Of a stretch of DNA of 64,000 bases, positions 4,009 through 36,300 are shown piece after piece. The stretch is from Agarophyton chilense. Lineage: Eukaryota; Rhodophyta; Florideophyceae; Gracilariales; Gracilariaceae. Within the stretch, counting starts at the first letter, position 1. Each line of letters opens with the position of its first letter. The stretch lies in assembly GCA_030374765.1 (NCBI GenBank), contig JARGXX010000016.1:248001-312000 (forward strand), given 5' to 3'. Under the pieces are notes generated by a model. That model ran no database searches. It saw nothing but the letters and a program-made list of their open reading frames with translations, and was not told the DNA's origin. The position numbers and the translations under genes are program-made.

Positions 4009-7000
4009 GTAATTACTTCTTCGCGTTTAACGTTTCTAAGTTTCTTGTGTTTGTTTGTTTGCTAAGCAGGTATGTCTGATCGAACAGGCAAAGATACCGG
4101 GGCTGACTCTGAGATCGTCAGACAGACCACTGTGGTCGGTCTGGAGGCTCCCCGACTGAAGAGCATAGACATTCCGTCTATCGCTAAGTTCCTCAAGAAG
4201 CGTGAGCTTTATGAGGCGCAGGTTGAAGAGAAGAAGTCGCATGGCGACGAGTCGCTGAAACCGATCTCTCTGAAGAGCTCGATCGAGCCGCTCGTTCAGA
4301 GGATGCTTTGGCGCGCGTAAGTTTCTGGAGGCTACGTCGCTGGCTGAGGTTACTGAGGAGAAGCTGCGGGCCTGTCTTGAGGCCGGCACAGAGGTTGCGT
4401 TCAATGATCTCCGCAAGGAGGACTGGCAGCGCATCGTTAAGAACGTCAAGATGGACATGACGATCCGTGATGCTCGTGGCCGAATCTGGCAGTTGGTCCT
4501 CGATTATGAGGAGGCGCTGGAGGCTGAGGGGTATAAGAATGTGTTGGACAAGTTTCCTGAGGTGGCCATCTCTCACCTGAGAACCAGGACCAAGCCGGCG
4601 CTGCTGAAGACGCACATGGAAAACCTTATTGAGATGAGAAGCAAGGAGCAAATTCACAAGACCGGTTTCTTCAAGTACGTCGAGATCATGGTGGAGGAAG
4701 CGACCATTGTCGAGAAGGTGGAGCGCATGGACGTGCGCCATCGTCCGGGTAAGGACGACGACAAGCCTTTCTGGCAGAGAAAGAACCAGAAGAATGGTCG
4801 TGCATCTGGCTCGTCGGTTATTGACAATATGAACCGTAACAAGCCCGGCACCAATAAGCGCAAGTTTGAGATGCCGACTTGTCTGAACCCGAGGTGCCAC
4901 GAGCACCACTTTCTACGTGATTGTAAGAACACCTTGGATGCGCGTAAGAAAGAGCTGATTGAGAAGTATCGCGCTAACCGCCCGAAAAAAGTCAAGTTTG
5001 ACACCAAGGGTGGAAGGAGTGATGGAGCTGTTAGCCGCGTTGGTGCTGCGGCCATCGACAGTCATTCGACGTTGTTCAGCGCGACGCTTGGGGCTGGAGC
5101 GATTGAGATCGTGGTTATGGCGGATCAAGGGTCGGACATCAACGTCCTTCCCAAAAATATCGCCGAGGAGCTGAACCAAAATGGGTTTATTTTAAATAAG
5201 GTGTCTTTGAATAACACCAAGTCTTTCGACACCGTCCTAGAGGGTGAAGCAAAGTTGACTTCGTCGGAGAAGGTGCAGCTGGATGTGACTCTACGCATTC
5301 GTCATGGCTCGAAGATTTTGCTCCGCAAGATGTGGTGGCACGTGGTCGACCAGCCGATTGCGTGCGTGCTGATTGGAAGAGAGGACCTCGCTGCGCTGGG
5401 GTTGGACAATAAGATCTTGCTGCAGGCAGCCGCAGAGCGTCTAGATGGAGTGGCGGACATGCCGTCGCTGCTGGAGGAACACGCGCGCAAGCAGAACGAG
5501 CTTGCCATGCGCAATGCCGTGCGCGTTAACGACGAGGACCCGCCGAGTCTGATCGCGGCACTCTGGGATGATGGAATTTTTCACTCCGAAGGGGGAGCTG
5601 AGAAGGATTGCCTGGAGGAGACTGACGTTTATGTCGACCTCGGCGAGGATGACCCTGACGAGATTACAGAGGCTTTGCATGGCGGCGTGGTCGCCGCCCA
5701 AGAAGCTGGCTTGAGCGAGGCTGGGGCGCAGAAGCTTGCCGACCTACACAAACGGTATCGGCAGGTTTTCGACTTAGGCTGGGCAAATCCCCCCCAGCCA
5801 AGGTCAGACCTTTAAGGGTTGCAACCCTGCCGGGCAAAAAGCCCGTCAAGGTGAAGGCGCGGCGGTATCCTGCTGCGCAGCGGGCGTACTTTAAACAGTA
5901 CGTGGACCAGTTGGTCAAGATGGAATTTTTTGTTCCAAACCCCGATGCCGAATGGCAAGCCGCACCGCTCCTAGTACCGAAGCTGGGATTGAGGGCGCAG
6001 TTCCGCATGGCCATCGACCTCCGGCCGGTCAATGCTGCTACGGTCAAGCAAGCTTGGCCCATGCCGCACGTCGAGTCAGAACTATATGGCTTTGCTGGAA
6101 GTAAGTGCTTCGCGGTGCTGGACTTCGTTAGCGGCTACTGGCTCATTTGTGCACTGTTGCCGTTGAATGCAGAACGCAATACCAGACTTTGCGCGCACTG
6201 TCGCCCCGCTAACGGCCGTGCTCGAGAGGGCTTATAGGCTAGAGGGCCGAAGGACTAAGAGGTCTATCAAGGATGTGCCGTTGCGCAGTTTGGCTTGGGG
6301 CGCTGAGCACGAACAGACCTTTCGAGCCTTGCAAGACAATCTTTGCAACGCGGTTGAGCTGGCATACCCGAAAGAAGGGTACATTCTATGCGTCTACGCT
6401 GATGCGTCGGAATATTTCTGGTCCGGCGTGGTGACACAGACCAAGCCAGACCAGCTCGCTCGACCAATCGAGGAGCAACGCCATGAGCCCCTCACTTTCC
6501 TCGGCGCCGAGTTCAAGAAGGCAGAGCGGAATTGGAGTATGTTCGAGAAGGAAGGGTTTGCTATTATGCAAGTGTTCGACAAAATGGACTACCTCTTCTT
6601 CGACGAGCAACCAGCGCACGTCCACACAGACCACCGCAATATCCTCTTCGTCTTTTCCCCGCTCGCTTTCGAGCCGGCACTCGGCCGCCATATTGTGAGT
6701 AAGGTGCAACGCTGGGAATTATTTCTATCTCGGTTTGACTACATACTTGAGCACATCGATGGCGACAAGAACGTCTGCGCAGATATGCTCACAAGATGGT
6801 GCAAGGGTTACCGCGTTGAGCAGCATCACCCAATGCGCACTACCTGCTCTCTATTAGAGACTACAGCATAAATGGTGTCAGCTGCTGATGATATAGAATG
6901 GCCAAGTATATCCTCGATTCGTGACGCGCAGGAAAGATCAAGCTCACCGAAAGCTGGACTGGCACTCGATCCGGATGATTGGCTCTGGAAGAAAGGGAGT

Positions 7001-8451
7001 CGCATCTGGGTGCCTGAGGATGATGCAGAGCTACAGCTCCGAGTGCTGATAGTGTCACATGGTGGCACGATGGGCCACCGGGGCCAGGACGCGACCGAAA
7101 GCACAATACGCGAGAGTTTCTACTGGTCGACGCTCAAGCAGGATGTCGCCACCTTTGTGCGTCGCTGCTACCACTGTTTGGTGACACGCACGGGTGAGGT
7201 CATACCTCGCCCACTAGGGCAGGCGCTGCACGGGTCCAGGGTGAATGAGGTCCTTCATGTGGATTTTCTTTACATGGGCTCAAGTAATGCAAAGATGAAG
7301 TATCTACTGCTGATGCGCGATGATCTCTCTGGGTACGTATGGCTCTGGCCCGCTGAGGCCGCTACTAGCCTGGTAGCCGCTGAGGCTTTAACTATGTGGA
7401 TAGCTTCGTTTGGAGGGTTCGAGTGGCTCGTGAGGGACCAGGGAACACACTTTAAGAACCAACTCCTGCACGACCTGACGGCTGAGCTTAAGGTGAAACA
7501 TCATTTTGCGACCGCCTACTCGCCCTGGGCTAATGGGACAGTAGAGCGTGTCTGCCGGGAGGTGCTCCGCGCGTGCCGCGCACTACTGGCTGAATGGAAA
7601 ATGTCCCCGCGCGAGTGGCCGGCGGTGTCTGAATGCATACAAAGCGTTCTTAATCACGCACCGTCGCGCCAGCTCGGCGCTCGGGACCCTGAGGCGCCGC
7701 GCATCTACCGCACGCCGCTGGAGGTCTTTACAGGACATCGACCTGTCAAGCCTTTGCTGCGCGCGTTTCCGGTCGAGCACTATAGGACAGCTACGCTGGC
7801 ATCTGAGGTTGAAGCGCAGAAGCTGCTGAACATCAACGATCTACAGGACGCCCTGCGGGATGTGCACCGCAACGTTTCTGGAAGGGTTGGCGTTGCGCGA
7901 CAAAAGTGCATTGATCGCCATAATAGGCTCACCCAGATTGCAGCTCAATCATTCAGTGTTGGCGACTTTGTGCTCGTACGAAGAGCACAGAAGAAGGGAC
8001 ACAAGCTGCTGTTCCTGTGGAAGGGACCGCGCAGGGTAGTGACGACAAAGTCACCCTGGGTGTACGAGGTGGAAGACCTCGTACGCAATAAGCGTGAAAC
8101 AATTCACGCGCGTCGGCTGTCGCTCTACCGCGAGGACATGCTGGAAAATGAAACCGGCGCTGATATCTACAGCTACCTATTCTGAAACGGTGATCGAAAG
8201 TGCTCGCGAGATACGAGACATTCGCGAGGGCGAGGGCGCGCTTGAGCTCAATATTGAGTGGGAGGGTTTACCAGATGAGGTCGATCGGACTTGGGAACCT
8301 CTCGCCAGCGCCTCCGCCGATCTTCCTGGCATGCTTGAGGACTTTCTGGCGACATCGGGGAAGCGGGATCTCAAGCAGACCGCAATCCGACTTTGCTAAT
8401 TCTGATGCTTCCGAAGACCTGCCTATTGCAAGCTTCAGGTGCATGGGGCGC

Positions 8452-10469: not shown

Positions 10470-10972
10470 GCGCGGCAGCTTCCCTCCAGGGAAGGGGCCT
10501 CCTCCCCCGGGGCCGCGACACGCACCCACGTAAGTAGCGTACATAGCGTTCTGTACACGCAACCACCAAGCAAGCAACCAACCGTCGCCGCCCCGTCAAT
10601 TCACGTCACACGTGCGCTTACAGCGCGCGTTTTTATGTTTGGTGCCGCTCTTTGCGCCGTGCCGCGCGCCCCCCACCCCCCCCCCACCCGCGGCGCCGCC
10701 TTTTGTGCGCGCGCCACGCGTGCCACCGCTTCGCTTCCGTTGCCGCGCACCGTTGCACGCCCGCGCGCACGCACTGTTGCGCCCTCCCCCGCCGGGCGCG
10801 CCTTGAAGCGTACCACGTCACATGCGCGCGCCATCCTCCTCCCAACCCCCCTCCTCCAACCCCCTCCCCTTACCCCTCCCCCTCCTCCCTACCCCCACCC
10901 ATTGCCCCTTCCCCTCCCTTTCCTGTTCCCCTCCCCTGACGCCCCAGCCTCTAGCCCGGCTGCGTCGTCAGA
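10470..10972. other. Pyrimidine-rich intergenic/promoter stretch
   Basis: After the NDUFAF5-like stop the plus strand becomes strongly C- and CT-rich (about 10660-10950), right up to the ATG of the malectin gene. A comparable C-rich leader precedes the serine protease at about 18250-18300. It probably contains promoter and 5' leader; no gene is supported. Confidence 0.5.
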
Positions 10973-13489
10973 ATGGCTCCCCTCTACTCGCACGCCGTCG
11001 CTCTCCTTCTCTTCGCGTCGCTGGCCCTCGCCGCCCGCGTCCTTCCTCCCCCAAATGTGTCCCTCCCCAATTCCCCCCGCCTGCTCCCCTTCGCCAGACA
11101 GGTCACCGAAGCTGATCTACCCCGCGTCCCTCCTTCCTTCAACATCAACTCTGGCGGCCCCGCAGTCGGCCGCTTCGTTGCCGACAACCCAGCCTGGCTA
11201 GTCGGCACCTCCGACGTCTTCGTTACCGACGACGCCGTCATCGGCGGCGCAGAGCCTATCAACCTCCCCATGTACCGTTCCCATCGCTTCGGCGTCGACG
11301 CCTCCACCTGGGGCTATGACATCCCCGTCGCCGACCCCGGAACCTACGCCTGTACCGTCCACTTTGCCGAAACCGATGCTGCCTCCTTTGTCGACGGCAG
11401 GCGCGTCTTCGACCTCGTCCTCGCCACCGCCCACGGCCCGCCCGCCGTCTTCCCGAACATTGACATCACCGCCGAGCTGGCCGGCGCCCAATTCACCGTT
11501 CTCACCAAGACCGCCCCATCGCTCCTCATCACCGGCATTCTCTCCGTTCGCGTCGTGTCCGACGTTGGCAACCCCATCATCTCCGGCATCACCTGCGAGC
11601 GTCACGCTGACCTACCGGACGGTGTCGCCCCAGACTTGCAAGCCGCTCCCATCATTCCCACTGATGCCGTTGTGCCCACCACCCCAGAGCTCACCTTCCC
11701 TGAAACCAACGTCGACGTCAATTGCGGCGGCCCCTCGCTCGGCCGCTTCGTCGCAGACACCACAGAAGACTATTCATGGATTCGCGGCGAAACCTCCATG
11801 TGGGAAGGCCCAGAAGGCGTCGTCATCGGCGGCGCGCAGCCGCAAGACGCCCCCGCCGTTCTCTCCCACCGATACGGTGTCGCAGGATCTCAATGGGGCT
11901 ACACCATCCCCGTGCTCCACCCCGGCATCTATGATTGCTCGCTTCATTTTGCCGAAACCGACACCGCGTTCTTTGTCGTTGGTGCTCGCGTCTTCGATGT
12001 CACCGTCAACGGCGTCACGCTTTCCGATATTGATGTCTTTGCCGAAACCGGCCGCGCTGAGTTCACTGCGCTTGTCAAGACTTTTTCCGAGCTCACTGTC
12101 ACTGATTCCATTGTAATCGACCTCAAGCCCAAGCTTGGCGACGCCTTTCTCTCCGCCATCACTTGCGCAAAAACCGCACAGCTTCCGTTCGTCTTCACCC
12201 CACAGCCTTCAGCTACCCCGGCAACCGTCGGTCCGCAGCAAACTGTCACTCCACCTGAGATGGACCGCGAAACCCTCGGCCCAGACACCGCCGAAACAGT
12301 CAACCCGGACGTCACCGAGCCGCAAGTCCTCGTTCCTCAGCATGATGACGCAGCTGCCACCGACGTCGTCATTATCGCCGGCGGTGACCAAGAGGAGACC
12401 GAGACTCCTGGCGTATCTGAAACGGCCGATGCTGAAACTGCTCAAACTGATGACAGTGCGCCGCCCACTGCAACTCCCGAGATTGTGCCGCCTGTGCATG
12501 CTCCCGAGAGCGTGCTATCCACCGCAACTCTTGCGCCTGGTGAATCTGAAACTCCTGAGAGTATGCCGCCCGCCACAATTGCCACCCCCGCTCCCATCAA
12601 CCCGGACGAGACGGACATGCCCGTGGAGAGTCCCTCGCCTGAGGCGAGCACGCCAGTGTCGCCGGAGGACACTACTTCGCCCTCTCCACAACAGTCTCCG
12701 TTGGTTGAGCCCACGGCGCAGGCCGCGCCGTCAAGCACATTTGATGCCGCCGGAGAACCGCTCGATTCGCTTAGAGAGACAGCCCTCACACCCGTTGACT
12801 CTCAGCTTCTCATCAGTTACAACCTGGGCGTCACCATTGACGACGGCAGCCCGCTAACGAGCCGGGTACGAGACGCAATCAAGAAGGTTGGTAATGATGG
12901 CATAACTGGCGACTTGCAATGGGCCGCAACTGATATCAGTCGAGATGATGATGCTATCCGTCAGAGTGACACCGAGTCTGATTACATTATGGTCATGCAG
13001 GTTCTGTACGAAGCAGAACAGGATCGAGAGCGGTCGCAAGCACGATTTGTAGAATTTGTTCAGAGTGGCGAGATGAACGATAACTTGAGAGAAGAAGGAT
13101 ATGGAAACGTGGCTATTTCTATACGCGATGCATCCAATGCACTTGGTTCTGAGTCGGAGTCTTTGACCCAAACGTCTACCATTGTGGCTGTCATTGTCGG
13201 CTGCACGCTACTCGTTATGGTAATGGTATCAATCGTCGTCTTTTACGTTCTTCGACGCAAACGCCGTAGCGGAGACGACTTCGACGCCCCTCCCCCTACC
13301 ATGAGTGAATCTGAAATGTCTTCCGTTGTCGAAAGGACAGAGACGGCGGCCTCTATCGAGTATCTGGATGATGATTCGACTTTCACTGCTGCCACCAGTC
13401 GTGCTGGAGAGAATCCAGACCAGATGGCCTATGTCAAGGACGCCTTAGGTCGCGGCACGGATGGTGCCCATGGAACAACCTCGCTCTGA
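10973..13489 (+). CDS. Type I membrane protein with two malectin-like domains
   Basis: 838 residues, no introns. Order: signal peptide (1 to about 21); malectin-like domain 1 (about 56-213; FNINSGGPAVGRFV, HRFG, WGYDIPV, YACTVHFAETD); malectin-like domain 2 (about 250-405; VNCGGPSLGRFV, HRYG, WGYTIPV, YDCSLHFAETD); Ser/Thr/Pro/Glu-rich stalk (about 410-600); folded-looking juxtamembrane region (about 605-733); one transmembrane helix (about 735-759); Arg/Lys stop-transfer; acidic Ser-rich tail of about 75 residues. Malectin domains bind carbohydrate: diglucosylated N-glycans in animal ER malectin, wall polymers for plant malectin-like receptors. This points to a surface glycan-binding protein. 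There is no kinase domain in the tail. The next gene, on the opposite strand, ends 400 bp downstream and may share the C-terminal half. Confidence 0.85.
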   Translation: MAPLYSHAVALLLFASLALAARVLPPPNVSLPNSPRLLPFARQVTEADLPRVPPSFNINSGGPAVGRFVADNPAWLVGTSDVFVTDDAVIGGAEPINLPMYRSHRFGVDASTWGYDIPVADPGTYACTVHFAETDAASFVDGRRVFDLVLATAHGPPAVFPNIDITAELAGAQFTVLTKTAPSLLITGILSVRVVSDVGNPIISGITCERHADLPDGVAPDLQAAPIIPTDAVVPTTPELTFPETNVDVNCGGPSLGRFVADTTEDYSWIRGETSMWEGPEGVVIGGAQPQDAPAVLSHRYGVAGSQWGYTIPVLHPGIYDCSLHFAETDTAFFVVGARVFDVTVNGVTLSDIDVFAETGRAEFTALVKTFSELTVTDSIVIDLKPKLGDAFLSAITCAKTAQLPFVFTPQPSATPATVGPQQTVTPPEMDRETLGPDTAETVNPDVTEPQVLVPQHDDAAATDVVIIAGGDQEETETPGVSETADAETAQTDDSAPPTATPEIVPPVHAPESVLSTATLAPGESETPESMPPATIATPAPINPDETDMPVESPSPEASTPVSPEDTTSPSPQQSPLVEPTAQAAPSSTFDAAGEPLDSLRETALTPVDSQLLISYNLGVTIDDGSPLTSRVRDAIKKVGNDGITGDLQWAATDISRDDDAIRQSDTESDYIMVMQVLYEAEQDRERSQARFVEFVQSGEMNDNLREEGYGNVAISIRDASNALGSESESLTQTSTIVAVIVGCTLLVMVMVSIVVFYVLRRKRRSGDDFDAPPPTMSESEMSSVVERTETAASIEYLDDDSTFTAATSRAGENPDQMAYVKDALGRGTDGAHGTTSL

Positions 13490-16745: not shown

Positions 16746-17050
16746 TCAGCAGGCAGGTGTTGAGACAAACGATTGTGCTGATGAAGGTGTCAATGATGGT
16801 GCCGATGGTGGCGTAACTACGCGGAGGGATGGGCGGATGACTTGGAGAGCGTTTCAGATGATGAGGCGCACGTGGCGCGCGTGGTGAGCGCGTGTGGTTG
16901 CGCCTTCGTTGTCCACTGCGGTGCGCAAATCAAGCTGCCCAACTGCAATCGCAACTGTTACAACGTTTGTAAGATTCCTCATCGTTGCCGCAGTCGCCAC
17001 CGTCGCCGCCTGATGCGACGATTTTGCAAGCCACGACACCAAGCGTTTGG
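16746..17050. promoter_or_regulatory. Probable divergent promoter region
   Basis: About 305 bases between the ATG of the small minus-strand gene and the chosen ATG of the GH16 gene. If both genes are real, their promoters must share this space. No specific element could be named. Confidence 0.35.
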
Positions 17051-17887
17051 ATGGGAGCACGGTGTATCATTGTGGCACTCGGCGCATGCGTGTGGTACGC
17101 GCACGCCTCCAAGGCGTCATCGTCATCAGCAATTGGGGACGCACGGCGTGAGCAGTGCATAGTTCCGGACCATTGCTACTTTCTGGAGCGTTTCCAAGAG
17201 CGAAACGGCGAGCGGTGGGAGGTGGAGCACGACTGGGCAAACGAGCTTCCGTTCAACGGCGGTTGGAACCGTGACAATGTGCGCTTCGACGAGCAAAATG
17301 CACAGCTAGTGCTGTCTGTGGACAACAAGCCCACGAGCGGCAAGCCGTTCTCCGCGGCGCAGGTTGCCACACGCAAGTGGCACGGATACGGCTGCTACGA
17401 GGTGCGCATGCAACCAGCAGCACAGTCAGGCGTGGTGACGGCGTTCTTCTCGCTAACCGGACCGTACGACCAGGCGCCCGGCGGTGGCACACAGCACAAC
17501 GAGGTGGACATCGAGTTCATTTGGCGCCCGGGCCCGACGCGAGTCGTGCTGCAAACCAACTACTTCACAGACGGACGCGGCGGGCACGAACAGCTAGTGG
17601 AGCTGCCAGCCGACGCGCACCGCGCCATGCACAACTACGCGTTTCGGTGGAACAGCTCAGGCGTGGAGTGGCTTGTGGACGGCGTTAGCGTGCGTTGGGC
17701 GTCTTCGATGACGCCCAAATTACGCGACAGTCCACATAAAGTGTTCTTCAACATGTGGCCCGTGCACGACAACGTGGCGGACTGGGCGGGGCGCTTTTCG
17801 TTCTCGCGACGCGTGTTTGCGTTTGTGGACGGCGTGCGCTTCAGCAGCGGCGAGCGCTGTGCCATTGCCAACAACTTCGACCCGTAA
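17051..17887 (+). CDS. Secreted GH16-family glycoside hydrolase or transglycosylase, XTH/lichenase-type active site
   Basis: 278 residues from the ATG at 17051, chosen because it gives a clean signal peptide (MGARCIIVALGACVWYAHAS); an in-frame ATG at 16985 would bury it. The active-site strand reads HNEVDIEFIW, so nucleophile E151, D153 and acid/base E155 are all present. The ExDxE spacing lacks the extra residue (beta-bulge) of laminarinases, agarases and kappa-carrageenases, and is that of lichenases, fungal CRH and plant XTH enzymes. Downstream LQTNYFTDGRGGHEQ and the WLVDGVSVRW segment also resemble XTH. Expected activity is cutting or re-joining beta-glucan chains in the wall; the substrate is not predictable. 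The XTH C-terminal extension is not evident. No introns. Family assignment is firm, substrate open. Confidence 0.87.
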   Translation: MGARCIIVALGACVWYAHASKASSSSAIGDARREQCIVPDHCYFLERFQERNGERWEVEHDWANELPFNGGWNRDNVRFDEQNAQLVLSVDNKPTSGKPFSAAQVATRKWHGYGCYEVRMQPAAQSGVVTAFFSLTGPYDQAPGGGTQHNEVDIEFIWRPGPTRVVLQTNYFTDGRGGHEQLVELPADAHRAMHNYAFRWNSSGVEWLVDGVSVRWASSMTPKLRDSPHKVFFNMWPVHDNVADWAGRFSFSRRVFAFVDGVRFSSGERCAIANNFDP

Positions 17888-18320
17888 TCGGCGGTGGCGG
17901 CGGCAGCGCGACGGAGACACTCACAGCCGTAGAGACTGTACGTAACTCGTGCTTGCAAGTTGGCGCGGCCGCTTAACAGACGCACGGACATGCAATGTTG
18001 CTAGCCAGAGAGCTCTAGAGAGAGCGAGCAACGAGCAAGTTCTCTACAAAGGGCAATCCAAAATCTTGGCAACTTTCAGTATCTTTGAAGGGATACATGC
18101 AGTGGCGCGTCTTTCTAGCTAGGCACCCATGTACCTTCGTACGTTAACGCCACGTTGCGCACCTCCCAACGTTCCAAACACGTGTGTTCTCGTAGCTAAC
18201 GTGCCATTCGTTGCAGAAGCGTTTACCCTCACAGCCCAATCCAAGCGCATCCCCCCCCGTTCCCCCCTTCACCCCCTCCCTCCCCCGTACCTCCTCGTTC
18301 ACCGGCAACCGCCTGCAGAC
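17888..18320. other. Intergenic before the serine protease gene
   Basis: About 430 bases. The frame of the next gene is open back to 18129 with an upstream ATG, but the translated leader there is Pro-rich and not signal-like. A C-rich tract at about 18250-18300 precedes the preferred start. Presumed promoter and leader. Confidence 0.4.
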
Positions 18321-19670
18321 ATGCCGCTCTTTCGCCCATGCTTCTCTTTCTACCTCCTCGCCACGTCGCTTATCGCCGCCGCGTCCCCGCCCCCATCCAT
18401 CACCTGTCCCGTTGTGCTTCCGCGTGCCTCTCACCAACGCGTCATCGGCGGCATCCCTGTCGTATCCACCACCCAATCTTATCTAGTTTCGCTGTCCAAC
18501 CCTAACAACACATTCGTTTGCTCCGGTTCGCTGCTCTCGTCGCGATGGGTCCTCACCGCTGCCCATTGCGATGTCACCGTCAAGTGGCGCGTTCGTCTGG
18601 CCACCTCCTCCGCCACCTCCGGCTCGCATGTCCCCATTTTTCGCGTCATCAACCACCCCTCTTACATTATCGGTCGAGTCGATTCGCCCGGTGACATGGC
18701 GCTCATCCAACTGGCCGCAGATGCTCCGTCGGACACCTCCTTTGTGTCCATCAACGTCAACGCCTCTCTCCCGATATCCGGCTCTTTTGCACGCACCAGC
18801 GGCTATGGTCGCACCACCGTCAACTCTGCTACCAGAAACCCTAAGCCCAATCAGGTTGACGCCCCGGTCAACAGCCCAATCCGATGTCGCCAAATCTATA
18901 AGGGCTACCTTAACATTCGCCAAGACCTCTTCATTTGTGCCGGCTATGGCAAGAATTCTTGCCATGCCGACTCGTGCAATGGTGATTCGGGAGGCCCGCT
19001 TGTCCAGTACAACCAGCATGGACGCCCGGTGCAGATAGGAATTACATCCTTCGGTTTGCGCTGCGGTGACAACGGTGTCCCTGGTGTCTACATCAGGCTT
19101 TCGTCCTACATACAGTGGATGGCGCAAAATGGTGCCGAATTCACCACTTCGTCGAGCGTCAGTTCCACATTTGCTGCCGGCAGTTCCGAGGCTGCCAAAG
19201 ATCAACCCTCCGCCACAATACAAGAGTCCCAAATAGGTGACTTGCCCGGCTTTTCGCGCCGTAAGAACACGCTTGTCATCTCCACCGTATGGTTTGCGGT
19301 CATTTGCGTCATAGCGGGAATATCCCTTATTTCTCTAATCGGCTTATCCTTCGCCTTTCTTTTCGGAGGCCGCCGCGAATCTGCCACATCCCCTTCAGAG
19401 TTTCAGTCGCCGGCTATTGACACCGCCCCTTCTTTGCCCCCATTCCATCGCCACGCAGCAGGCACACAGCAGCACAAAGATGTGCAGCGAGCGATAGATA
19501 TATTGCAATCAGTTATAAACGATGACATGTCGCAACCGTCGCGCAACAGTACCCCTTCGGAGTTTGAGGATAACGTGTTTGCACCATCAGTACACGCAGA
19601 GCAGTTCTCAATCAGACCGGCACGACCACCCGTCCAACTCCCTGCTCCACCTTCGAATATGACTTCATAG
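18321..19670 (+). CDS. Membrane-anchored trypsin-like (S1 family) serine protease
   Basis: 449 residues from the ATG at 18321, which starts a signal peptide (MPLFRPCFSFYLLATSLIAA); an in-frame ATG at 18129 is less likely. The activation site is Arg followed by VIGG. The catalytic triad is complete: H82 in LTAAHC, D125 in GDMALI, S223 in GDSGGP. The residue six before the serine is Asp (D217), which in trypsin sets cleavage after Arg or Lys. The catalytic domain (about 41-275) is followed by a Ser-rich linker, one transmembrane helix (about 313-340) and a cytoplasmic tail of about 105 residues. So the enzyme is probably an anchored surface protease with its catalytic domain outside. Substrate unknown. 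No introns. It ends 197 bases from the end of the convergent five-unit bestrophin gene. Confidence 0.88.
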   Translation: MPLFRPCFSFYLLATSLIAAASPPPSITCPVVLPRASHQRVIGGIPVVSTTQSYLVSLSNPNNTFVCSGSLLSSRWVLTAAHCDVTVKWRVRLATSSATSGSHVPIFRVINHPSYIIGRVDSPGDMALIQLAADAPSDTSFVSINVNASLPISGSFARTSGYGRTTVNSATRNPKPNQVDAPVNSPIRCRQIYKGYLNIRQDLFICAGYGKNSCHADSCNGDSGGPLVQYNQHGRPVQIGITSFGLRCGDNGVPGVYIRLSSYIQWMAQNGAEFTTSSSVSSTFAAGSSEAAKDQPSATIQESQIGDLPGFSRRKNTLVISTVWFAVICVIAGISLISLIGLSFAFLFGGRRESATSPSEFQSPAIDTAPSLPPFHRHAAGTQQHKDVQRAIDILQSVINDDMSQPSRNSTPSEFEDNVFAPSVHAEQFSIRPARPPVQLPAPPSNMTS

Positions 19671-19867: not shown

Positions 19868-22800
19868 TCACTTCCGGAAGAGGGTTCTGCCAATTACGAA
19901 TTCTCCTCTTCCACTTTCGACGATGTCCCTCACCCCATTCCTGTATAGATCAAGATTTTTTTTCACAGTCAATATGGCCGTGTCGACGAAATCGTCCATA
20001 GGAATGTCGGACACATCATATCCAAAAGGATTTGACAACTCGGAAGCCCATCTCTCGATACCAACCACTCCGTACGTCACGAATACCACCCAAAGAATTG
20101 TCAACCATCCGCTTGATTCTACAAGTCCGAGGGGTAGTAGTAGTAACCATATAACCATAAAGATTCTCAAGTGTTGCACATACCCGTACGGCAGAGGCAC
20201 TTGCAACATCCGTTCACATTCAAAAGCCGATTCCTTTAGCTGCTGCAAGTACTTCCACATGTATTCCACTTCCTGCCCACTGGCAGGATATTCACTTCCT
20301 TCGCTTGCAGAAATCCTATCACCTTTGGCGAGATAGTTCTCCACGAGATCTAAGCAATAATTCGCTCTTTCTCTGACCGAGAGAAGCTTTTGAACGTCCC
20401 CATTGCATAGGATTTCTTCGTATTTCTCTTTGTAGTCCTTTCCACGTAGCTGACCCATCAAAGCAATCGGAAAGGCCGCCAAGTGTGCTGCTATTCGTTC
20501 TAAGTCATCGGGGTGCCATACACCACTGCGGTAGCTCTCAAACAAGCGATTGCTTAAAACTCTTAGTTTGGAAATGATCCCCTTCTGCCATACGTCAACT
20601 GCTCTTACGTACCTCCAGTGACTATCATACAGACGGAAACCCAGAAGCAAGAATAAAGCAAACCCAACATACTCCTCCACCGAACTGTCAATTGCAATGC
20701 GAGAACAAAACCATGGCTCACATGAATCATTGAATGCGTCGTCAAACGGAAAGCTCTGGGATACCAACCATGCAAATGTGATCGCGGCGACCGTCCAGAT
20801 AATAACCGAGGTCGTCAACAATGGCGCCATAACGTTAATAGCTAATTTCAATCTTTGTAGAACACGAGCTCGAAATCCGTTTGGTTGGGTCTGCATGCTT
20901 CCCTCTACTAACACTTCCTTCCAGAATAGACGAACTGGACTGGGATAGTCGAGCCCAATCCCTCCGCTTCGATAGTTTTTCCGAATGAATAAAACATCTT
21001 CAACAATTTTGCGCGCAAAGCTGTCCAAATCTAAGTCGTTCATATCTGAACCAAATGGATGCTCAATTTCCGATGCGATGGTGTACATGCTAGAAGGAGT
21101 TTGAAAGTCAGATGACGGTCTTCATGAGGCAAAAATAAATGGATAAAACTTACCCCAATACACCGTAACCAATGATAGAAACCCACAAGATGGTGAACCA
21201 GCCTGTCACGATAGTAGAATTTCGCAAAGATGTTAATACCAAGCATGTGCCAATAGTTTCCTTTTCCTCTCTTAACCCAACTTACCTGATATCTCTGCCA
21301 ATGCAAATGGCAGTATTAGGAACCAAATAGCAAGAAGAGCATTCAGGAGCATCACAAACCCTGGGGCAATTGGAAAAGCTGACAGAAATATCAATTGCTG
21401 TGCAGCTTTCTCCAACAACCCCATCTCTCGTTTCATTGCAATAAATCTTTTCCCGTAAGTAATCTTTTGAGCAGCATACTCAGGCCGACTTGCTGCGGCG
21501 AGTTGGTACGCCTTGACCACTTCCACACAGTATCGAGACATGTTATCAGCACAATGAACACGAGCAAGATCTTCCTGCGAGAGGAGCCCCTTGATTTCTC
21601 TAATATCGCGAGAGTTTCGCATCTGATTCTTCAATACAATAGGTATGCAGGCTATAAAAGCAATAATACGGTTGTGATCCCCCTTGTGAATGGCCCCATC
21701 GTCAAACAAGGTCAAAAACTGAACGGCAAGGGAGTGACAGGCTGAGTGAAGTGTATCGGCCCACGAAATCCCGGCGTCCTTGCATCTATCGAACGCAGCA
21801 TTCACGTAAAAGCCAAGAAGTAAAAATGCTACATCAGATGTTAGAAAAGTCATTCATAAAGGTCAATAGATACTATTCAAATGGATGAATAGTATCTCCA
21901 GTCCGAAGAATCCAACTTGAACTTACCTGCAAACGAAACATAAGTTGCTATTGAGGTGTCGATGCTTATTCGGGAAAGCCACCATTTAGCAGGCTCTGAG
22001 CGGTCCCTGGATATGTATGACAGAACTACGGCCAATGTCGTGTAGCAAACTATGAACATCAATCCCTTCCATGGCACAGAGTTAAGTAAATGAGAGTACA
22101 AGCATGGTTTCACGCGTGGTTTCTCAAGCTTGTCAAAATGAAACACAGGCTCTCCAAATTCTGAGGGAAAGCTTTCATCCATGCGAGGAACGGTGAGCTG
22201 CTGGGTGACTTTTTGATTTCTCAAGGCAATACCTAGGTCTGCCTCAGAATCTGGGGCAGAGGGTCCGATGAGTCGATGACAGTCCCATTGCGTGCTGCGC
22301 ACACCTTCAAGGATGAATTCAGCCGTTTCGAGACATATGTCTTCCACAGGAATATCAATTGAGTCCTTTCCGTAGGGGTCGACGAGTTTCACAGCAATTT
22401 GTTCTAACCCGATGACACCATACGATATAATTGGCGTCCAAAGAATTGTGAAGAATCCAGTTTTTGGAGTCATTGCAAATGGAAGCAAGATCAACCATAT
22501 GATAGTGAAGAGGTGTTGGTGCTCCGTGTAACTTTTGACAACTGGAAAGCGTTTCACTCCGAATGCGCGCTGAGTAAGCTCCCGGATAGTTAAAATCCGG
22601 TTCAGCATCCAGATTACCATTGTTGCTTGGCAATGGAATGGTCCCATCTCGTCGTGTCCTTCCCGATCTTTTTTGTCTTGGAGAATAATGTATGCCTCAA
22701 TAGTCTGAAGCAAGTACGAAATACGGTCAGAACTGGTTTCCAATCTTTGTTTGTCTTCGGCAGATAACAAACCATCCGTATACTTCTCGGGCTTCTCTTC

Positions 22801-25609
22801 ACCGCTCAGGAGACGGTCTCGGAAAGAAAGAGGGATCTGCACAATGTGCGCGATGATGCGTTCTTTGTCGGTCTTATGAAACATTTCTCCGCGAAAGTTT
22901 TGGCATATTTCGATTGCGAGTGTTCTTAAGAGCATCTTCAGGTCTTGTATAAGCCTTGCTCCTGATTCATATCTTCCAATAGCATCAGATGCACGAAATG
23001 CGAGAATCATAAACAACGCAAATCCAACATTTCCCAAAACACCTAGGTCAACGTCTATCGGGCTGCACCATCCACGGCAAGAATTCCTCTTTCCATCGCC
23101 CCATGTAAACGACAATCCGTACGATGTAAACACGGCAATGATGCTCCAAAGAAATAATGCAACCATATCTCGAACCCTGACAGACGGGACGCTATCAAGA
23201 AGGGAGACTAAAGATACTAAGGGAGATGGATTATTGTTCTTCTGAGTGAATTTCAACCATTTCCACATTGACCGTCTAGTCTTCATGTCATCTTCCGCGT
23301 GAGAAGTAGTCTCTCGTGTTTCAACTTCCTGTGGTTTGAAGATATCTTTCGAGTAAGACGATTCATGGACAAATCCGACGGTTCCGTACCGACTGTTTTG
23401 ATAGATATCGTGAATGGAATGCTTAATTTCGCTGCAAAAAGATTGGAGTGGGATGTCGTACTCGTCAAAACCGAAGGGATCAGCAAGGTCTTTCCCAATC
23501 TTGAGCAAGTTCAGCACCGAAAAGCTGATAGGAACGATGTAAACGAACACTAGAAAGCCGTTGAACTCGACTAATGCCAGGGGTAATAAGGCTAACCAGA
23601 AGAACGCAAAGACCGTGAGATGGGTCGTGAAAGACTGTGAAATGGGGAATCTGTGCATTGCCACGCATTCATGCACAGCGATTTCGATCTTCCTTAACGT
23701 GAAGGCGACGGTGTTGCCAGCACCTCTCACCGGAGAGGCCAATAATTTGCAGGTTTGGTCATCGCCACATTCTAAACTATTTTGGTAGCCATAGATGACA
23801 TCCATGGCGTGCTCGAATAGGTCGTTAGCTTCATCAAACGCGGCGACATCCTTTGCAGACAGAATACTGTGTAACTCCGTCGTGTCCCTTGTATCTCGAA
23901 GCATCTGTTTGGCAGCGTAAGGCAATGCAGCAAAATGCGAGAAGAGACGCTCCCGGTCTCCGTGATGCCATGTGCCTGGGCTGCAAGACATTGCAAAACG
24001 GAAAGCAGCTTCTTCGATTGCGGGCTTGAGTTTGCTTTGCCATATTTCAAGTCCTCGCGAGTACCGTTTGTAAGCATCGTTCAACCAAAATCCTAACACA
24101 AGGAATACGCCAAGACTCACATACGAATCAGTAGATCCACCCACTGGAATGTATACGCACCACCATCGACATGTACTGTTGTCTTCATTCCTCGTGATGC
24201 CCCACGTGAAGAATACAACAAACGTCGTCCAGAAAAGTACCACCACGACCCCAAGAGCAACGTCTTTGGAGGAATAGATAGGGCGTAATACGGAAAGTAG
24301 AGAGTCGATGAGAAATCTTTTGGTCTTTCGCTGTTCTCCAGTGGAGGTCTCCGCACACCGCTCTTCTAACCATTTTGGATGGTCGTTCTGTGGATAAATT
24401 ACTTGGGTGTATGCCATTCTCTCTGATGAAAAGGCCTGAAGAAGTTGAAGCGATGTCTCAGCTGCCATTCGATTGAGCTTGATATCTTGTATGTCGTGCC
24501 CAAACGGGTGGTTTAGAGCGCTGGCAATCGTAAATAGCATGGAAACACCGTAAGTAACAAGGACAGTCCATAGCACAGTAAACCTAGAATGCAACATACA
24601 AAATGAAGTTATAAGTGTGTCAGCGTGGAACCGTGACAAAGGAAAAAAGTGAGAAATCTTACCATCCGCTTGTTTCAATCACAGCGAGCGGGAGAAAGAA
24701 CATCCATATATACAAGAAGATCTCAAGATGATTGACATATCCGGCAGAAGGACTAAAATTTGATATCGCTGTGAGAATACCGGCTTGAGAATCGATAGCA
24801 TCTACGTTGTTCATGATCAGGTGCTGAGTGCTTAGGCCAGCTGGAGTACTTGGCATGGCTACCGATTGGAATGAAACTAGTGCATCGTCTTGAGCAGCAC
24901 TGAAATATGTGCGAACAACCCTAGAGCAATGGAGGTGCATACTATTTGCAGCCATAACATCATCAATGTCGGCGTCGCAAAGAACACCCGCAAGCTGCTC
25001 ACCCTCTCGCTCTCCTCTCAGTTCCATCTTTAGAGCGATTGGAATCGCAATAAGGTGTCCGACGATACGTTCCAGGTCCCCGGGATGCCACGAACCTGCA
25101 GGAAACCCCTGGCGAAGGTCCCTGACAACATATCGCAAATATGCAGCCATATGAGTCCATCCAAGCTGTGCCTCCCAGTAACGGCTACTGGCTTCACGAA
25201 TGAAGAAGCCAAGGAGAATGAATAATGCCCAGCCAACAGCATACGACACCGAAGATGAAACGACAAGACGAGATCTCCAAAACTCAACAGAAAGCGAGTC
25301 GCCACCATCCGGTGCGAGGGAGTATGATATAAGCATAACAATGGAACTCCAGAGTATCTGAACTAGAAGAATTCTCTTCGGAATGGTCTTTAACAACATG
25401 TTGACTAGGGAAAAATCGGAAGGCTTTGGCTCCGGCGGAGAATGTCCTAGCTGACCGATGGCCGCTGCCGTTTCCAACCGTAGAGCGAGCGCTCTATGCG
25501 AAAAGTTATGGTACGAAGGACCTCTGGAAGGCGCGGGTGCCTCCTCATCGTCAGAGACGAAGGATCCTGTTGATTGCTCCCCTAGACCTGCTTTTGCAGG
25601 AGAAGCCAT
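19868..25609 (-). CDS. Giant protein with five tandem bestrophin/UPF0187 channel units
   Basis: Predicted 1805 residues in five exons: 25609-24663, 24583-21927, 21828-21286, 21202-21154, 21089-19868. All introns (79, 98, 83 and 64 bp) are GT-AG and the total is an exact codon multiple. The start is the first ATG; the frame is open upstream without one. Five units lie in a row (about 65-366, 409-716, 771-1081, 1146-1431, 1474-1790). Each has the pore-helix pattern (A)LF-LLGF, then an H-x-x-D-x-x-R-I or similar cytosolic motif, then LLPLALVE with GW or GF, and closes with (H/D/N)P(F/Y)G-D-x-x-D(I/L). This order matches plant VCCN1 and bacterial bestrophin-like anion channels. Known bestrophins assemble from five single-unit chains, so this may be a one-chain channel. 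The N-terminus (1-65) is Ser/Pro/acidic. Family firm; single-chain channel inferred. Confidence 0.9.
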
Positions 25610-30399: not shown

Positions 30400-33300
30400 T
30401 GATGCGGGAACTACGGCGAACCGTCGTGCTCCGGCGCACCGTCGTGTCGGGAGGCGTTTCGAGAGACGTTTAGGGATTTTTCGGGCCAATGGTTGCCCCC
30501 TCCTGAAGGCTGCGATTCGTGTTGCCGCTTTTGCGCCAATAGCGGGCGATAAAATAAGCCGGAATGGTTTGAGGCTCTTGCCAAGTGTCTTCCTCAGATG
30601 TGTAGCCAATCCAACGGACGCCATAGCACATAGTTCCATCTTCTCCGCGACCGGCGGAGATGATGCGCTCAATCACATATTCCGGTTGGTATTCATTCTC
30701 CGGCATGAGAGTGTGGTCCAAGGGGGCGAATCCATCGGAGTCGGTTGGAAGAGATGGGTCCTCGTCGTTGGCATTGACCATCGGGTCCATGGGATTAGTC
30801 GGGTCCACGGGAACTGCCTTAGGGGGTGTGGGGACTTCGGCGTCGACCTGAGGTCGTAGTGATTCCGTTGGGCCAGGGGACTGGGACTTTGGAGATGCGG
30901 GGGAGCTGGGGGCTCGTGCCACCCGATCAATAGATACGGTGCCCTGTAGGCCGTCAGTTAGTAACGTAATGGTATTTAAATTGGCCTTAAGGACTTTTTA
31001 TGGTCTCGTCGAGCGGGATAAGAACTTCCGCGTAGTGCCCTCCAGTTCCTCATTGTCCTTCAGTGGCCGGTCCAGGTAAACAAGTTCTGCTTTCTCAAAG
31101 GTCGGTGTGTTCCAAACAGCATTGTCGAAATTGACCTTGTAACGCCGTTGGAATTTGGTCAGTACAGTTCTAGCCGATTGGATAATGCGGTCGATGCGTC
31201 GGCCCGAGTAGCGCTTCGCCTGGGTAGGATTCATCCCTTCGGTTATGTCCTGGGGTATGATTGACTCTTGAAGGTCAACAGCTATCGACGGCGGCGCTCT
31301 CGTTAGCGTTAAGTCGAAAGGTGTTGTCCCCGTGGAAGCGTGCACCTGCGTGTCGTAGGCATAAACCAGTGGCTCAACTTAGTCGTCCCAGTCCAATTGA
31401 TGTTCCGATACGTAGTGTGCCAATCGGTCCAGAAGGGTGCGGTTAAAACTTTCGGTTTGGCCAATGGTTTGGGGGTGGTACGCCGTGGTGGTCATATGTT
31501 TGATACCTAAGGTAGCACAAACGTGTTAGAAGAATTTGGATACAAACTGGCTGCCATTATCCGTAAGGAGTTAGATTGGCATGCCATAGGGATATACCCA
31601 GTGGGATAAGAAGGCCGTGGCGACATCCGTAGCTGTTGTCTTCCCTAGGGGTAGGGCTCGGGTAAGTTTTGTAAACCTATCTGTTGTAACCAAAACAAAC
31701 CGTTTCCCATGGGACGAATTAGGCAAAGGCCCAAGTATATCCATCGCGACAAATTCCATCGGGCCTGCGGCGGGAAACCCCTTCAATTTGGCTTGATGTT
31801 TGGCGCGAGACCCTCGGGTTTGTGCGAACGATGTACAGTTCCGTGCGGGTTGTCATAGGTCCTGCGCCATCAGTGAGCAGTAGAAGAACTTCCGTAGGGT
31901 CTAATACATTCGTCGGCCTCCAGGGTGACCAGCCAAGCGAGGGAAATTGGCGAGGTATAGGAATCGCGCCCTTAGCAAAGTTGGTATCACCCGTTGGAGT
32001 GCGCCATCCAGCGGTGAGCGGCGACATAGTTGTCCAAATCGGTCAGAGTCGAACAGGCATCCAGGGGTTCCCACCAATTGCGATGTTTCCTTGCAGTACT
32101 CTTTTTCGACCTGCGCCTGTAGAAGTCCTTATTAGTTATAGGGAGGAGCTCTTTTTCCTTCGGGGATATCGCGTTAACCTTAGGTGATGTCGAATTGAGC
32201 GGTACTGTCTTCCAGTCCAATAGGTATACATCGTTTTCCTTTTCCCCAGGATCCTCCAATTGCACCTTACCCACAAGGCCATCCGTTTCCGTATAGTCCT
32301 GAGGCCCATCGTCTGTAAAGTGGGTAGTAATTAAGTCTTCCAATGGAGTGTCATCAGTTCCGTCGGTAATGATTCGCGAGAGGGCATCTGCTGCTTGGTG
32401 CTTGATGCCTGGCCTATAGGTTATCTCGTAGTCATATTCAGACAGCCTTAAACGCCACCGAGAGAGGTGAATTGATGCATTGGTCATATGGAGTAGCCAG
32501 CGGAGTGAATCGTGATCTGTCCTAATGGTAAACCTAGTTCCCTCGAGGTACGGGAGGAGTGTCAATATGGACCATACGATGGCTAGATATTCCTTTTCGG
32601 TAGTACTTTAGTTTCGCACCGCGCTGATGAGCGTTCTGTTCCAGTATCCAATCGGTCGATAGTCCTTCGGTGACTCCTTTTCCTGTACCATTACACATCA
32701 AACTTGGACATCAGAGGCGTCTGTGTCCAGGACAAAGGGCCTATTGCGTTCTGGTAAAACCAATATAGGTGGGCTCTGCATTTTGTCCTTTAGGGTCTGA
32801 CATGCCTCGTACTGGTTGTCGGTAAGGGCTTCGAACTCCGAAGGTGTTCCTTTCTTCAGCATCGCGTTGAGAGCGGTCGAGATCTTGGCAAACCCTTGGA
32901 CGAACCGTGGGTAAACGTTGCGCAAGCCCACGAAGGATCGTAGTTCCGTGTGGGTCCTAGGCGGCTTAGCATGGCGAATCGCATTTGTGGTCCGTGTGGC
33001 CACCTTTAGCTTTCCTGGAAGGACGACGTGACCGAGATAGTCCAGTGAAGCCTGGACGAAAGCGCATTTGCGCAGTTTTAGTGTTAATCTAGCGTCTTGT
33101 AGTATTGCTAGCACCTTCTTCATGTGGCGAAGGTGTTTCTTTACGGTCCGTGAGAAGGTTTTAACGTCATCCAATTGGACCAGGGCGAACTTCCATTTGA
33201 CTCTGGACAGTATGATGTCCATTACCCGTTGGAACGTTGCTGGTGCATTCTTTAAACCAAAGGGAATACGAGTAAATCTGAACAGACCTTCATGGGTGGT

Positions 33301-36300
33301 AAAGAATGTCAGCGCTCTCGCATTTTCGGCCGAAGGGATTTGCCAATATCCGGAGTTAGCGTCCAATGTGGTAAATACGACAGCTTCGCCTAAGGAATCC
33401 AGACAGTTATCCATGCGGGGTATCGGGTATGACTCCCTCTTGGTTACTGCGTTCAGCTTCCTGTAGTCGACACAGAACCTGACGGAGCCATCTTTCTTCG
33501 CCACGAAGACAAGGGGACTTGCCCATTCGGATTGGATTGGAGGCGCCGGCTCTATGATTTGAGCTTTGCGCATCTTGTCCATCTGGTCGGCGACAATTTA
33601 CCTACACTTAAGGCCTGTACGGTATGGGTGCTGGAACTGTGGTCTAGCATCATCCTTAAAGTCAATGCGGTGTGTAGTTGCTCTGATTGTGCCCAATCTA
33701 CCTGACCACATGGTCTGGTATTCCCTGAGGTGATCAAGTACCTGAGGCCTACAGGATTTGAAATCTGCGACGATAGCGACCGTCCCCTCCCAAGAGTCGA
33801 CGTCCTCGTCGGGAGTTCGCGTTGAAAGGTTATCCAATTGGGGCTTCATGATGGCTACGGGCGCGGGTAGAGTGATGCTAATCACTGTACCTTTAGGTAA
33901 CCGTACGGGTTTATCTCTGAAGTTGCTGATTGTAACCAAGAAGTGCCTGTTAGGGTGGATGTCCACTACTCCATTGGCAATCAAGGAAAAGTGCTTCAGA
34001 ACCATTTTCGGGTGGTTCTGAATCGTTACGAGACCTGAGGACTGGGAATGGACGGATACAGCGATTTGGGTCATCGGGGGTATCGTTACGGCCTTTGACA
34101 GGCGAACCTTATTCGACTTCGTGGTGTCGGAGATAACCTCTCGTTTGCGGTTAACTTCTGGACCTGGGGCGGAGCCGGTTGTGGAGATGGAAGGTACGCG
34201 GTATAATGCGACTTTGATAAGGCCTGGTTAAATGGCTTTAATGTATCGATCGATAAAGGAGGTCCCTAGGATTGCTTCAGTGCCCAAGATAGGACATACA
34301 AGGAACCACGTGCAGACTTTTAATTGTCCTAACTGGAGGTAAAGTGGTGCTATCCCTTTAATGTCCATTGGTCTACGTGATGCATTGGTAATCGTTGGGG
34401 TCTACCTTGCCTGAACGAATTCTTGCCAACCCAGTGGGAGTAGCTTAGGATGGACCAAGTTGGGACCGGCGACTGTGTCCAATACGGCTGTGGTCACTCG
34501 AGAGTTGTTGAAACGAAGTCCCACGGTTACTCGAACTTTGTAATTCTCCTTCCTGAGGATACAGACAGGGTCGTTATTGTGTTCCAATTTTGGTTCATCC
34601 TGAATGGTCCATTGTTAGTGGTTTGTATTGGGAGGTGAAGAGCTCTTTGGCTCATAACCGTCCAATTGGTTGAGGCAGGGGCTCAGAGAGGGAGGATTTG
34701 CCTGGCGGCGACCCTCTAAAAGTTTTCTGATGGGGTTTCCGTTTCTTCCTGAGGATAGGACTCTTGTTCGGGGTCGTCCGAATTATCTACAATTGCCTGG
34801 AACTGTAAGGCTTTGATCGGAGTGTCCGGAGGCGTTGCATAGCGTGAGCTTCCAGGGGTCCCTGTGGTTCATTGCTGTGCCCTGTTAAACATTCCTTCGG
34901 ATCTCTGCATCCGGTAATTCTCTTCCCTGAGAGCCAGGAGGATTTTTCGTGCGTCCTCAGGTAGATACCTCGTGCAGTCACAAGGTAGAGCAATGGAAAG
35001 GAAGACGAAGCAAGCCCCTGGGGCGTGATCAAAAACGTCCTTGCGGGGCGGAAAGGGAGAATACTTGGGCGTTGGTGGTCCAGTGGTCGCTGTAGTTCCT
35101 TGGGAGGTATATGATGGGGGCCCGGACGGAGGAGCACTGAAGTTTACCACGAGGACATTTCCCGAGTCGGCATAATAGAGTGATGATTCCATATCTGATT
35201 CCGTGGAGCTAACCAAATGGGCTTTGTCGGGTTTACGCAATTGGGTTGCGCGTCCTCTGGATAGGTCAGCATTCCGCCTGGAAGTCCCGTAGGTTTTTCC
35301 ATAACCTTCGGCATAAGTAACGAGCCTTTGGAAGGAGTATTGTGGGTTTTCCGTGTGGTAATTGCGGACATGTGTCCGAATGGCAGGGATTAGTCCCGTG
35401 ATGAAGTGACGTTTGAGCCGTCCTTCGGAGAATACGTTTCCACGTCGGTAAGCCTTCTTCCGTAGGTCGTCTGCGAAGGCTGATTCGGTCATGTTGGAGC
35501 TCCGCCGAAAGGATATTACTTCCTGAGGGGCATCCATTTTAACTTCATCGGTGGCGTAAGTTTCCAAGAGGTAATAAAAAACCTGAAGGTATGACCTGAG
35601 CAGCTCACGGTCTTAAGCATCCACTAGGTCAGTTGTGTCGGATATCTTCGAAACCAATCGGCAACGCGCTTGTCCTGTAAGGAAGAATTAGAAAAGGTAC
35701 AGAGCGGCGCCCTCGTGGACGCCGTTCTGATCGCAGGCCGTATGGAAAAAACTGATAAATCTAAGGACAGCAATGGGATGGGAACCAGAGAACTTGTCCG
35801 TAATGGTTGGTTGCATCCGTTTGGCCCATTTGGCGACTCTTCGAGCCACCGAACCAGAATATTTCGGGGACCTGTCGGCCAGCTGGTAGTTCCGGTAGTC
35901 TAGAACCTTAAGGAAAAGTTCGTTTATGGTTTTCAGTGGTCTGAGGCCTCGAGCGGCAGCCTCATACACTTCCGAGTCGGTCGTTTCGGTCGAGGCCGAT
36001 TCGGAATCGCTCGTGTCCGAATGGTCTCTTCTTTTGCTTCTTCTGTTCTTCTTTCTCCTGCGGGTACTTCTTTTCTCTCCAGTGGAATAGGGACCTAAAG
36101 GGTCGATCTCTCTATCAAATCCGATAGCGCCCTGAGGTCGCTGTACCTCATATTGTCCTTTGGGTAGGGCAATATATCCCTCATCTAGACACGGAGCCTC
36201 TCTTGTGCTCCTCGATTGTCCTTTCATTGGATTTTCCTGATGATGTTCCCGGATACACATACACTGGTCTCCTGGCTCAGAAGAAAGAAGTACCCATGAT
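30400..36300 (-). mobile_element. Ty3/gypsy chromovirus fossil, minus strand
   Basis: Parts read along the minus strand from right to left: gag-like sequence with a Ser/Arg/Lys-rich stretch (about 36.3-34.9 kb), protease region (about 34.6-33.6 kb), reverse transcriptase (about 33.6-32.7 kb, with KKDGSVRFCVDYRKLN), RNase H (about 32.6-32.2 kb, with FTIRTDHDSLRWLL), integrase (about 32.0-31.0 kb, with FVAMDILGPLP) and chromodomain (about 30.75-30.5 kb, with YGVRWIGYTSEEDTWQEP). The domain order and chromodomain define a chromovirus, a lineage distinct from the one at 3.6-8.8 kb. I could not identify its LTRs, so ends are approximate. It is broken, with many breaks, and looks older than the first chromovirus. 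Confidence 0.87.

Follow-up and report, generated by a model that had tools for sequence, protein, structure and literature searches.

Known bestrophins are C5 homopentamers, and the algal rhodopsin-bestrophin fusions called bestrhodopsins, which link rhodopsin to a single bestrophin unit in each chain, are said by Rozenberg et al. in 2022 to form giant pentameric channels. As described in PMC8496536, five bestrophin subunits surround a single pore, and KpBest, which assembles as a homopentamer from one-unit chains, acts as a Na+ channel without a calcium site. The chloride channel VCCN1 has a neck formed by P184, L188 and F192 (PMC9076864), and VCCN-like genes have already been reported in red algae, where the accessible text of the reports does not present them as multi-unit chains (PMC5948301, PMC4890181). 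The gene described here lies in a 64,000-nucleotide stretch of the Agarophyton chilense genome (hereafter the window, to which all coordinates refer) and encodes five bestrophin units in one polypeptide, whereas one unit per chain is usual among bestrophins of solved structure. We put at about 0.7 the probability that a single such chain closes on itself to form a complete bestrophin pentamer whose pore is asymmetric; such a pentamer would probably be an anion channel.

A single gene with five bestrophin units

The whole gene, from start to stop codon, occupies 19868-25609 on the minus strand, as placed by the gene model and by comparison with relatives, and its product is 1805 amino acids (aa) long. 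The five exons, all on the minus strand, are exon 1 (24663-25609, 947 nucleotides (nt)), which carries an N-terminal extension and most of unit 1; exon 2 (21927-24583, 2657 nt), which completes unit 1, carries units 2 and 3 and begins unit 4; exon 3 (21286-21828, 543 nt), which lies in unit 4; exon 4 (21154-21202), a micro-exon of 49 nt also in unit 4, whose junctions were checked against relatives; and exon 5 (19868-21089, 1222 nt), which completes unit 4 and carries unit 5 and the stop. The joined exons make 5418 nt, an exact codon multiple that gives 1805 aa plus the stop, and all four introns start with GT and end with AG. The five GT-AG exons, exact codon total and roughly 1805 residues of the initial annotation were thus confirmed, as was its 2657-base exon that starts late in unit 1 and ends within unit 4, and the observation of one five-unit chain at 19868-25609 is confirmed. 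When the product was compared with seven relatives, the protein was continuous across the four junctions, with the exception of a 10-residue insertion in P0004 adjoining junction 3; one relative, P0009, begins just past junction 1 and is uninformative there. In the annotated Agarophyton chilense protein P0001, 29 in-frame residues at window 20528-20614 (unit 5), which the window gene keeps, are absent, and this gap reflects an annotation error or else an alternative intron that keeps the frame.

Unit boundaries were assigned by Pfam together with a five-unit profile built from the window gene's own five units. On the minus strand, unit 1 comprises aa 70-366 (24433-25402, interrupted by intron 1), unit 2 aa 414-710 (23401-24291), unit 3 aa 780-1076 (22303-23193), unit 4 aa 1146-1434 (20984-22095, interrupted by introns 2, 3 and 4) and unit 5 aa 1484-1777 (19955-20836). 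The Pfam search, made with five overlapping pieces that together cover the whole chain, indicated that all five units match Bestrophin_2 (PF25539) with 94-152 bits against a cut-off of 27 (E 1.4e-26 to 2.3e-44), which bears out the proposal of a bestrophin pattern occurring five times in order. Given these E-values and the existence of relatives, a chance match is excluded. Apart from PF25539 no family rose above the cut-off in these pieces, and no rhodopsin domain was matched in them. The family had initially been named as PF01062, which was incorrect: PF01062 was not matched and the actual family is PF25539. A search of the gene's own genome for PF01062 likewise gave no match, a result that is uninformative because the control genomes were equally without one. 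NCBIfam yielded no match for five queries, and Rfam gave 0 matches in the window.

Of the four transmembrane helices that a bestrophin unit has, hydropathy analysis located TM1, TM2 and TM3 in all five units, whereas TM4 could be told apart from TM3 in units 1 and 3 alone. The PFGxDxxD element, which had been claimed for every unit, stood as to the aspartates, both of which are present in 5/5 units of the window gene, and failed as to the first three letters in unit 3, which reads PYG where the other four units read PFG. Among direct repeats in the gene, the longest family measures 32 nt at 66-72% and no longer repeat links the units, so the units are not recent copies of one another at the DNA level.

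Five-unit relatives and the history of the unit positions

A profile search of the Agarophyton chilense genome (79.8 Mb, 135 contigs) revealed four further five-unit loci, three on contig C4 (L033, L034 and L035) and one on contig C75 (L036), all with units ordered 1-2-3-4-5. The proteins P0007, P0002, P0005 and P0031 pair with L033, L034, L035 and L036, respectively, and P0001 with the window gene. In all four paralogues the profile match of unit 1 is broken at 248/249, the same position as in the window gene, and the breaks in unit 4 fall mostly at the window-gene positions, one of which is missing from L033; L033 has no intron near the beginning of unit 4, where the window gene and the remaining three loci each have one. 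Two single-unit bestrophin genes, L031 and L032, were found on contig C13. A weak match on contig C117 was dismissed as noise.

A protein search with the whole chain returned 35 proteins, all of them multi-unit, five being genes of the same genome and 30 coming from elsewhere; scoring in each protein search was confined to the 7999-8000 candidates with the most words in common, so that rare forms could be missed. In the databases these proteins are labelled as unnamed, hypothetical or 'Bestrophin/UPF0187'. Four of the 30 outside proteins, namely P0003 (Gracilariopsis chorda), P0004 (Gracilaria domingensis), P0006 and P0008, start ahead of unit 1, continue past unit 5 and contain exactly five units by both our own profile and Pfam, and the contigs of P0006 and P0008 (6448 and 8339 bases) exceed the coding length by about 1.0 and 2.75 kb. 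The count of exactly five in a fixed order, to which the initial annotation had drawn attention, therefore held in each relative running end to end. Another 20 outside proteins begin within unit 1 and continue through units 2-5 to the end; in 18 of them the start falls at profile positions 240-264, adjoining the conserved first intron, so that these look like unspliced predictions. The proteins of about 1490 aa hold units 2-5 as one predicted protein. The remaining outside proteins either begin in or before unit 2 and carry the units through 5 (2/30) or stop early (4/30). Every unit stretch in the relatives matched best the same-numbered unit of the window gene and no other order was met, and our own profile detected no sixth unit among the multi-unit proteins found.

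A search with a two-unit-sized query listed 38 proteins, which were pieces of five-unit genes breaking at known intron positions and single-unit proteins, fungal ones among them. Among the matches listed, with pieces judged by their break positions, no intact chain of 2, 3 or 4 units was recognised. Two short patterns each, run against bacterial genomes, archaeal genomes and viral contigs, confirmed no relative there, and distant kin would escape such patterns.

The history of the unit positions was followed in two trees. The 86-row tree contained the window gene, 17 of the 35 proteins (three of them own genes), seven single-unit relatives and KpBest as a distant row, and stretches under 170 profile positions were dropped. 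In this tree each unit position formed one side of a branch with support of 99-100, and the five units together stood apart from the seven single-unit relatives (96/94). In a 42-row tree, with fewer rows and the genome's own single-unit genes included, the unit-position branches were again firm at 98-100; here L032 grouped with the single-unit proteins P0052 and P0055-P0058 (99/99), and L031 was far more divergent. Since each position forms its own branch, the order was already set when these lineages diverged, and in the rows sampled no unit has changed position. Mean identity between relatives was 43-50%, alike for all units, and that between units of one chain 19-33%. Each unit position thus evolves as its own lineage under similar constraint. 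It is fairly likely that the chain is a natural single-chain pentameric channel with an asymmetric pore, whose subunits were fused and fixed in order in an ancestor of these algae and have been kept as five since.

Neck residues and candidate assembly of the chain

The structures 4wd7, 4wd8 and 6iv0-6ivw of the Protein Data Bank (PDB), which we take to be KpBest, carry I, I and F at chain positions 65, 69 and 73. The neck of KpBest is formed by I62, I66 and F70 (PMC8496536). Indexing the KpBest residues in the alignment placed the neck columns at -8, -4 and 0 relative to the LGF phenylalanine, and hydrophobic residues occupy all three columns in 5/5 units of the window gene. The rows read W-I-F in unit 1 (phenylalanine, at the KpBest F70 position, encoded at 25205-25207), L-L-F in unit 2 (24088-24090), F-M-F in unit 3 (22996-22998), F-L-F in unit 4 (21809-21811) and F-L-F in unit 5 (20636-20638), all on the minus strand and placed by alignment. 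The column after 'FP', at the start of TM3, was tried as the aperture and rejected, for KpBest indexing gives chain position 210, whereas I180 corresponds to 183.

The residue at -8 is largely kept within each unit position. Counted over related and hence not independent sequences, with P0001 excluded as a copy of the window gene, it was W in unit 1 of 12/12 chains (8/8 outside the own genome), L in unit 2 of 32/33 (28/29 outside), F in unit 3 of 30/35 (26/30 outside), F in unit 4 of 27/35 (22/30 outside) and F in unit 5 of 23/30 (19/26 outside), the remainder in unit 5 being Y; single-unit relatives had F in 7/7. Position -4 was less strict than -8 and was mixed in unit 4. The initial annotation had based an asymmetric pore on the residue after LGF/LAF, and it reported the letters correctly (F, W, R, Y, R); this residue, F+1, is conserved in unit 2 (W, 33/33), unit 3 (R, 33/35) and unit 4 (Y or F, 31/31), but it is not among the three neck-lining positions. 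Because F+1 lies one past the neck phenylalanine, asymmetry is better argued from position -8, where W, L, F, F and F are kept by position across relatives, and the broader claim that pore positions differ between units was in this form upheld.

The aspartates at PFG+4 and PFG+7 presumably correspond, by BEST1 numbering, to the BEST1 calcium ligands D301 and D304. In the same set of sequences, D was found at PFG+4 in 29/33, 32/35, 30/35, 29/30 and 28/30 and at PFG+7 in 32/33, 34/35, 33/35, 30/30 and 27/30 for units 1 to 5, respectively. The calcium clasp of BEST1 is described as including aspartates D301 and D304 (PMC8496536). Since the two aspartates are kept and are equated with these ligands, calcium gating of the five-unit chain is possible. 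The conserved residues also bear on whether the linked bestrophin units might fold and yet have lost channel function, serving as a scaffold or regulator. The unusual W in the unit 1 neck would suit such a role. Most sequences, however, retain the neck phenylalanine and both PFGxDxxD aspartates in each of the five positions, and conservation is about equal across the units; we consider the loss of function very improbable.

In the mechanism we propose, one polypeptide made of five diverged bestrophin subunits, connected in order through linkers, would fold into one five-unit ring round a central pore, in which neighbours in the chain would be neighbours in the ring. The five fixed rows would together form a hydrophobic neck, and the channel would conduct anions in the manner of bestrophin and VCCN1, an anion channel of this kind being the most likely function. 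We infer ring closure within one chain from the unit number, the order and the fixation of residues, and the equation of one chain with one channel is the simplest account of exactly five units, in order, each distinctly conserved. In animal bestrophins the N- and C-terminal extensions of each protomer are described as wrapping its neighbour (PMC8496536), so joining a C-terminus to the next N-terminus would be easy through the inter-unit linkers, which measured 43-108 residues in six chains.

Several findings weigh against a single chain forming a single channel, and each is given here with the reading to which it would lend weight. At the level of the gene, P0001 equals the window chain except that 29 aa are absent inside unit 5, and the end-to-end chains outside the own genome number only 4. 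At the level of transcripts, P0007, which we read as transcript-derived from the style of its name, matches the paralogue L033 exactly: its residues 1-343 lie in exon 1, intron 1 is removed, residues 344-1410 continue without a break from the last part of unit 1 across units 2 and 3 and most of unit 4, and the protein then joins the micro-exon and reaches the next exon of L033. One RNA of L033 thus covers units 1 to 4 and extends to the unit-5 exon, which speaks for one chain. P0007 nevertheless loses frame inside the micro-exon, so that unit 5 is not read, and this transcript evidence comes from the paralogue L033, not from the window gene. A few bases are missing from P0007 in the L033 micro-exon, near gene-strand nt 5840-5890, which may reflect either an assembly error or unusual splicing. 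P0050, which is transcript-derived and labelled complete, contains unit 5 alone and belongs to another species (48% to the nearest own locus). The last two facts, that P0050 has only unit 5 and that the spliced run was seen at L033 rather than at the window locus, would fit separate genes or transcripts wrongly joined by the gene model. Such a misjoining is nonetheless extremely improbable, as exon 2 alone holds units 2 and 3 with parts of 1 and 4, the proteins of ~1490 aa with units 2-5 and P0006 and P0008 with all five are each one predicted protein, P0007 is one spliced run through units 1-4 of L033, and the protein is continuous at the junctions save for the P0004 insertion.

The linkers are relevant to a different possibility, in which one chain would be a polyprotein cut in its linkers into five subunits that then build a heteropentamer of fixed composition. 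The linkers in the six chains are long enough for cutting, and the position-specific neck residues would suit a heteropentamer either way. A W-containing tail, defined by a loose pattern and present at the ends of 5/7 single-unit relatives, follows unit 1 in 23/33 and unit 4 in 21/30, so that the linkers at these two places keep a tail like that of single-unit proteins, which speaks against cutting; with the same loose pattern it was found after units 2, 3 and 5 in 0/35, 0/35 and 0/30, which does not favour the single-chain channel. Inspection by eye of up to 9 linkers per position showed no repeated cleavage-like motif, no systematic search having been made. On balance we regard the polyprotein as unlikely.

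The remaining points against a single-chain channel concern the relations between units. The joint five-unit clade had a p-AU of 0.208 in the 42-row tree, and one clade for all five units is for this reason not claimed as settled. In a covariation test on units 2-5 of 24 chains (28 before near-identical ones were dropped), pairs in neighbouring units were 57 against 49.4 expected in the top 100, 169 against 148.1 in the top 300 and 506 against 493.4 in the top 1000, a slight lean from 24 chains. This want of clear neighbour coupling, together with the four more five-unit loci and two single-unit genes of the genome, with which the chain could co-assemble, would suit mixed pores, in which chains join other five-unit chains or single-unit bestrophins and the count of five has another cause. 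Against mixed pores, each end-to-end relative has exactly five units, as many as a ring of this family contains, and among the matches listed we recognised no intact chain with 2, 3, 4 or 6 units; we consider them rather improbable, and the self-closing single chain remains our preferred reading.

Neighbouring genes and comparison with known channels

The bestrophin gene stands tail to tail with a trypsin-like serine protease gene on the plus strand (18123-19670; PF00089, E 6e-38), whose product has a hydrophobic stretch near its C-terminus. Beyond it lies a glycoside hydrolase family 16 gene (16973-17887; PF00722, E 2.2e-28), perhaps for a cell-wall enzyme, and an open frame of 844 aa at 10955-13489 encodes a product with two malectin-domain stretches and, close to its C-terminus, a hydrophobic one; it may be a surface receptor-like protein. 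Retrotransposon pieces with integrase (rve), RVT_1 and RVT_2 frames occur at 6872-8185, 32698-33597 and 52160-54442. A 6-phosphogluconate dehydrogenase gene (58804-60645; PF00393, E 1.7e-119) encodes a long N-terminal extension, which may be a plastid presequence.

In the open-access literature we found no description of a five-unit or tandem bestrophin chain, in line with the initial annotation's statement that it knew of none, and nothing on bestrophin in Gracilaria. Compared with the described proteins, the window units belong to the same fold family as KpBest and PF25539 by profile, have a hydrophobic neck in the same columns, and share the PFG motif and the PFG+7 aspartate with KpBest; in contrast to KpBest, the window gene has five diverged units per chain and D at PFG+4 where KpBest has A. 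Unit 5 matches PDB 7ek1 at E 3e-05, and 7ek1 is MdVCCN1 (PMC11638005). The x-L-F neck of VCCN1 resembles window units 2 (L-L-F), 4 and 5 (F-L-F), whereas VCCN1 has one unit per chain, is a homopentamer with its own N-terminal domain and resides in the thylakoid, and the window chain has five units. BEST1 and BEST2 likewise form a pentamer with a neck gate, from one unit per chain as against five here, and the acidic cluster of their calcium clasp beyond the two aspartates is not kept in the window units. PDB 7pl9, labelled Rhodopsin, was matched in the structure-database searches; bestrhodopsins resemble the window chain in being fused algal bestrophin domains, while the window chain has five bestrophin units and no rhodopsin match.

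If the single-chain reading is true, a red alga with a set of at least five such genes would show the evolutionary breaking of five-fold symmetry in a channel, for which chloride, bicarbonate or osmotic balance is the candidate physiology. Bestrophin stoichiometry and the gating roles of single subunits are hard to test since the subunits are normally identical, and a natural chain of five fixed, diverged positions would permit changes in one subunit without engineered concatemers. The four-domain sodium and calcium channels (Nav and Cav) are a single-chain version of a ring that is normally built from separate identical subunits, and they likewise have a fixed order and an asymmetric pore, with an unrelated fold and four-fold rather than five-fold arrangement; as those channels stand to the tetrameric channels, so the window chain would stand to the pentameric bestrophins, as their five-fold counterpart.

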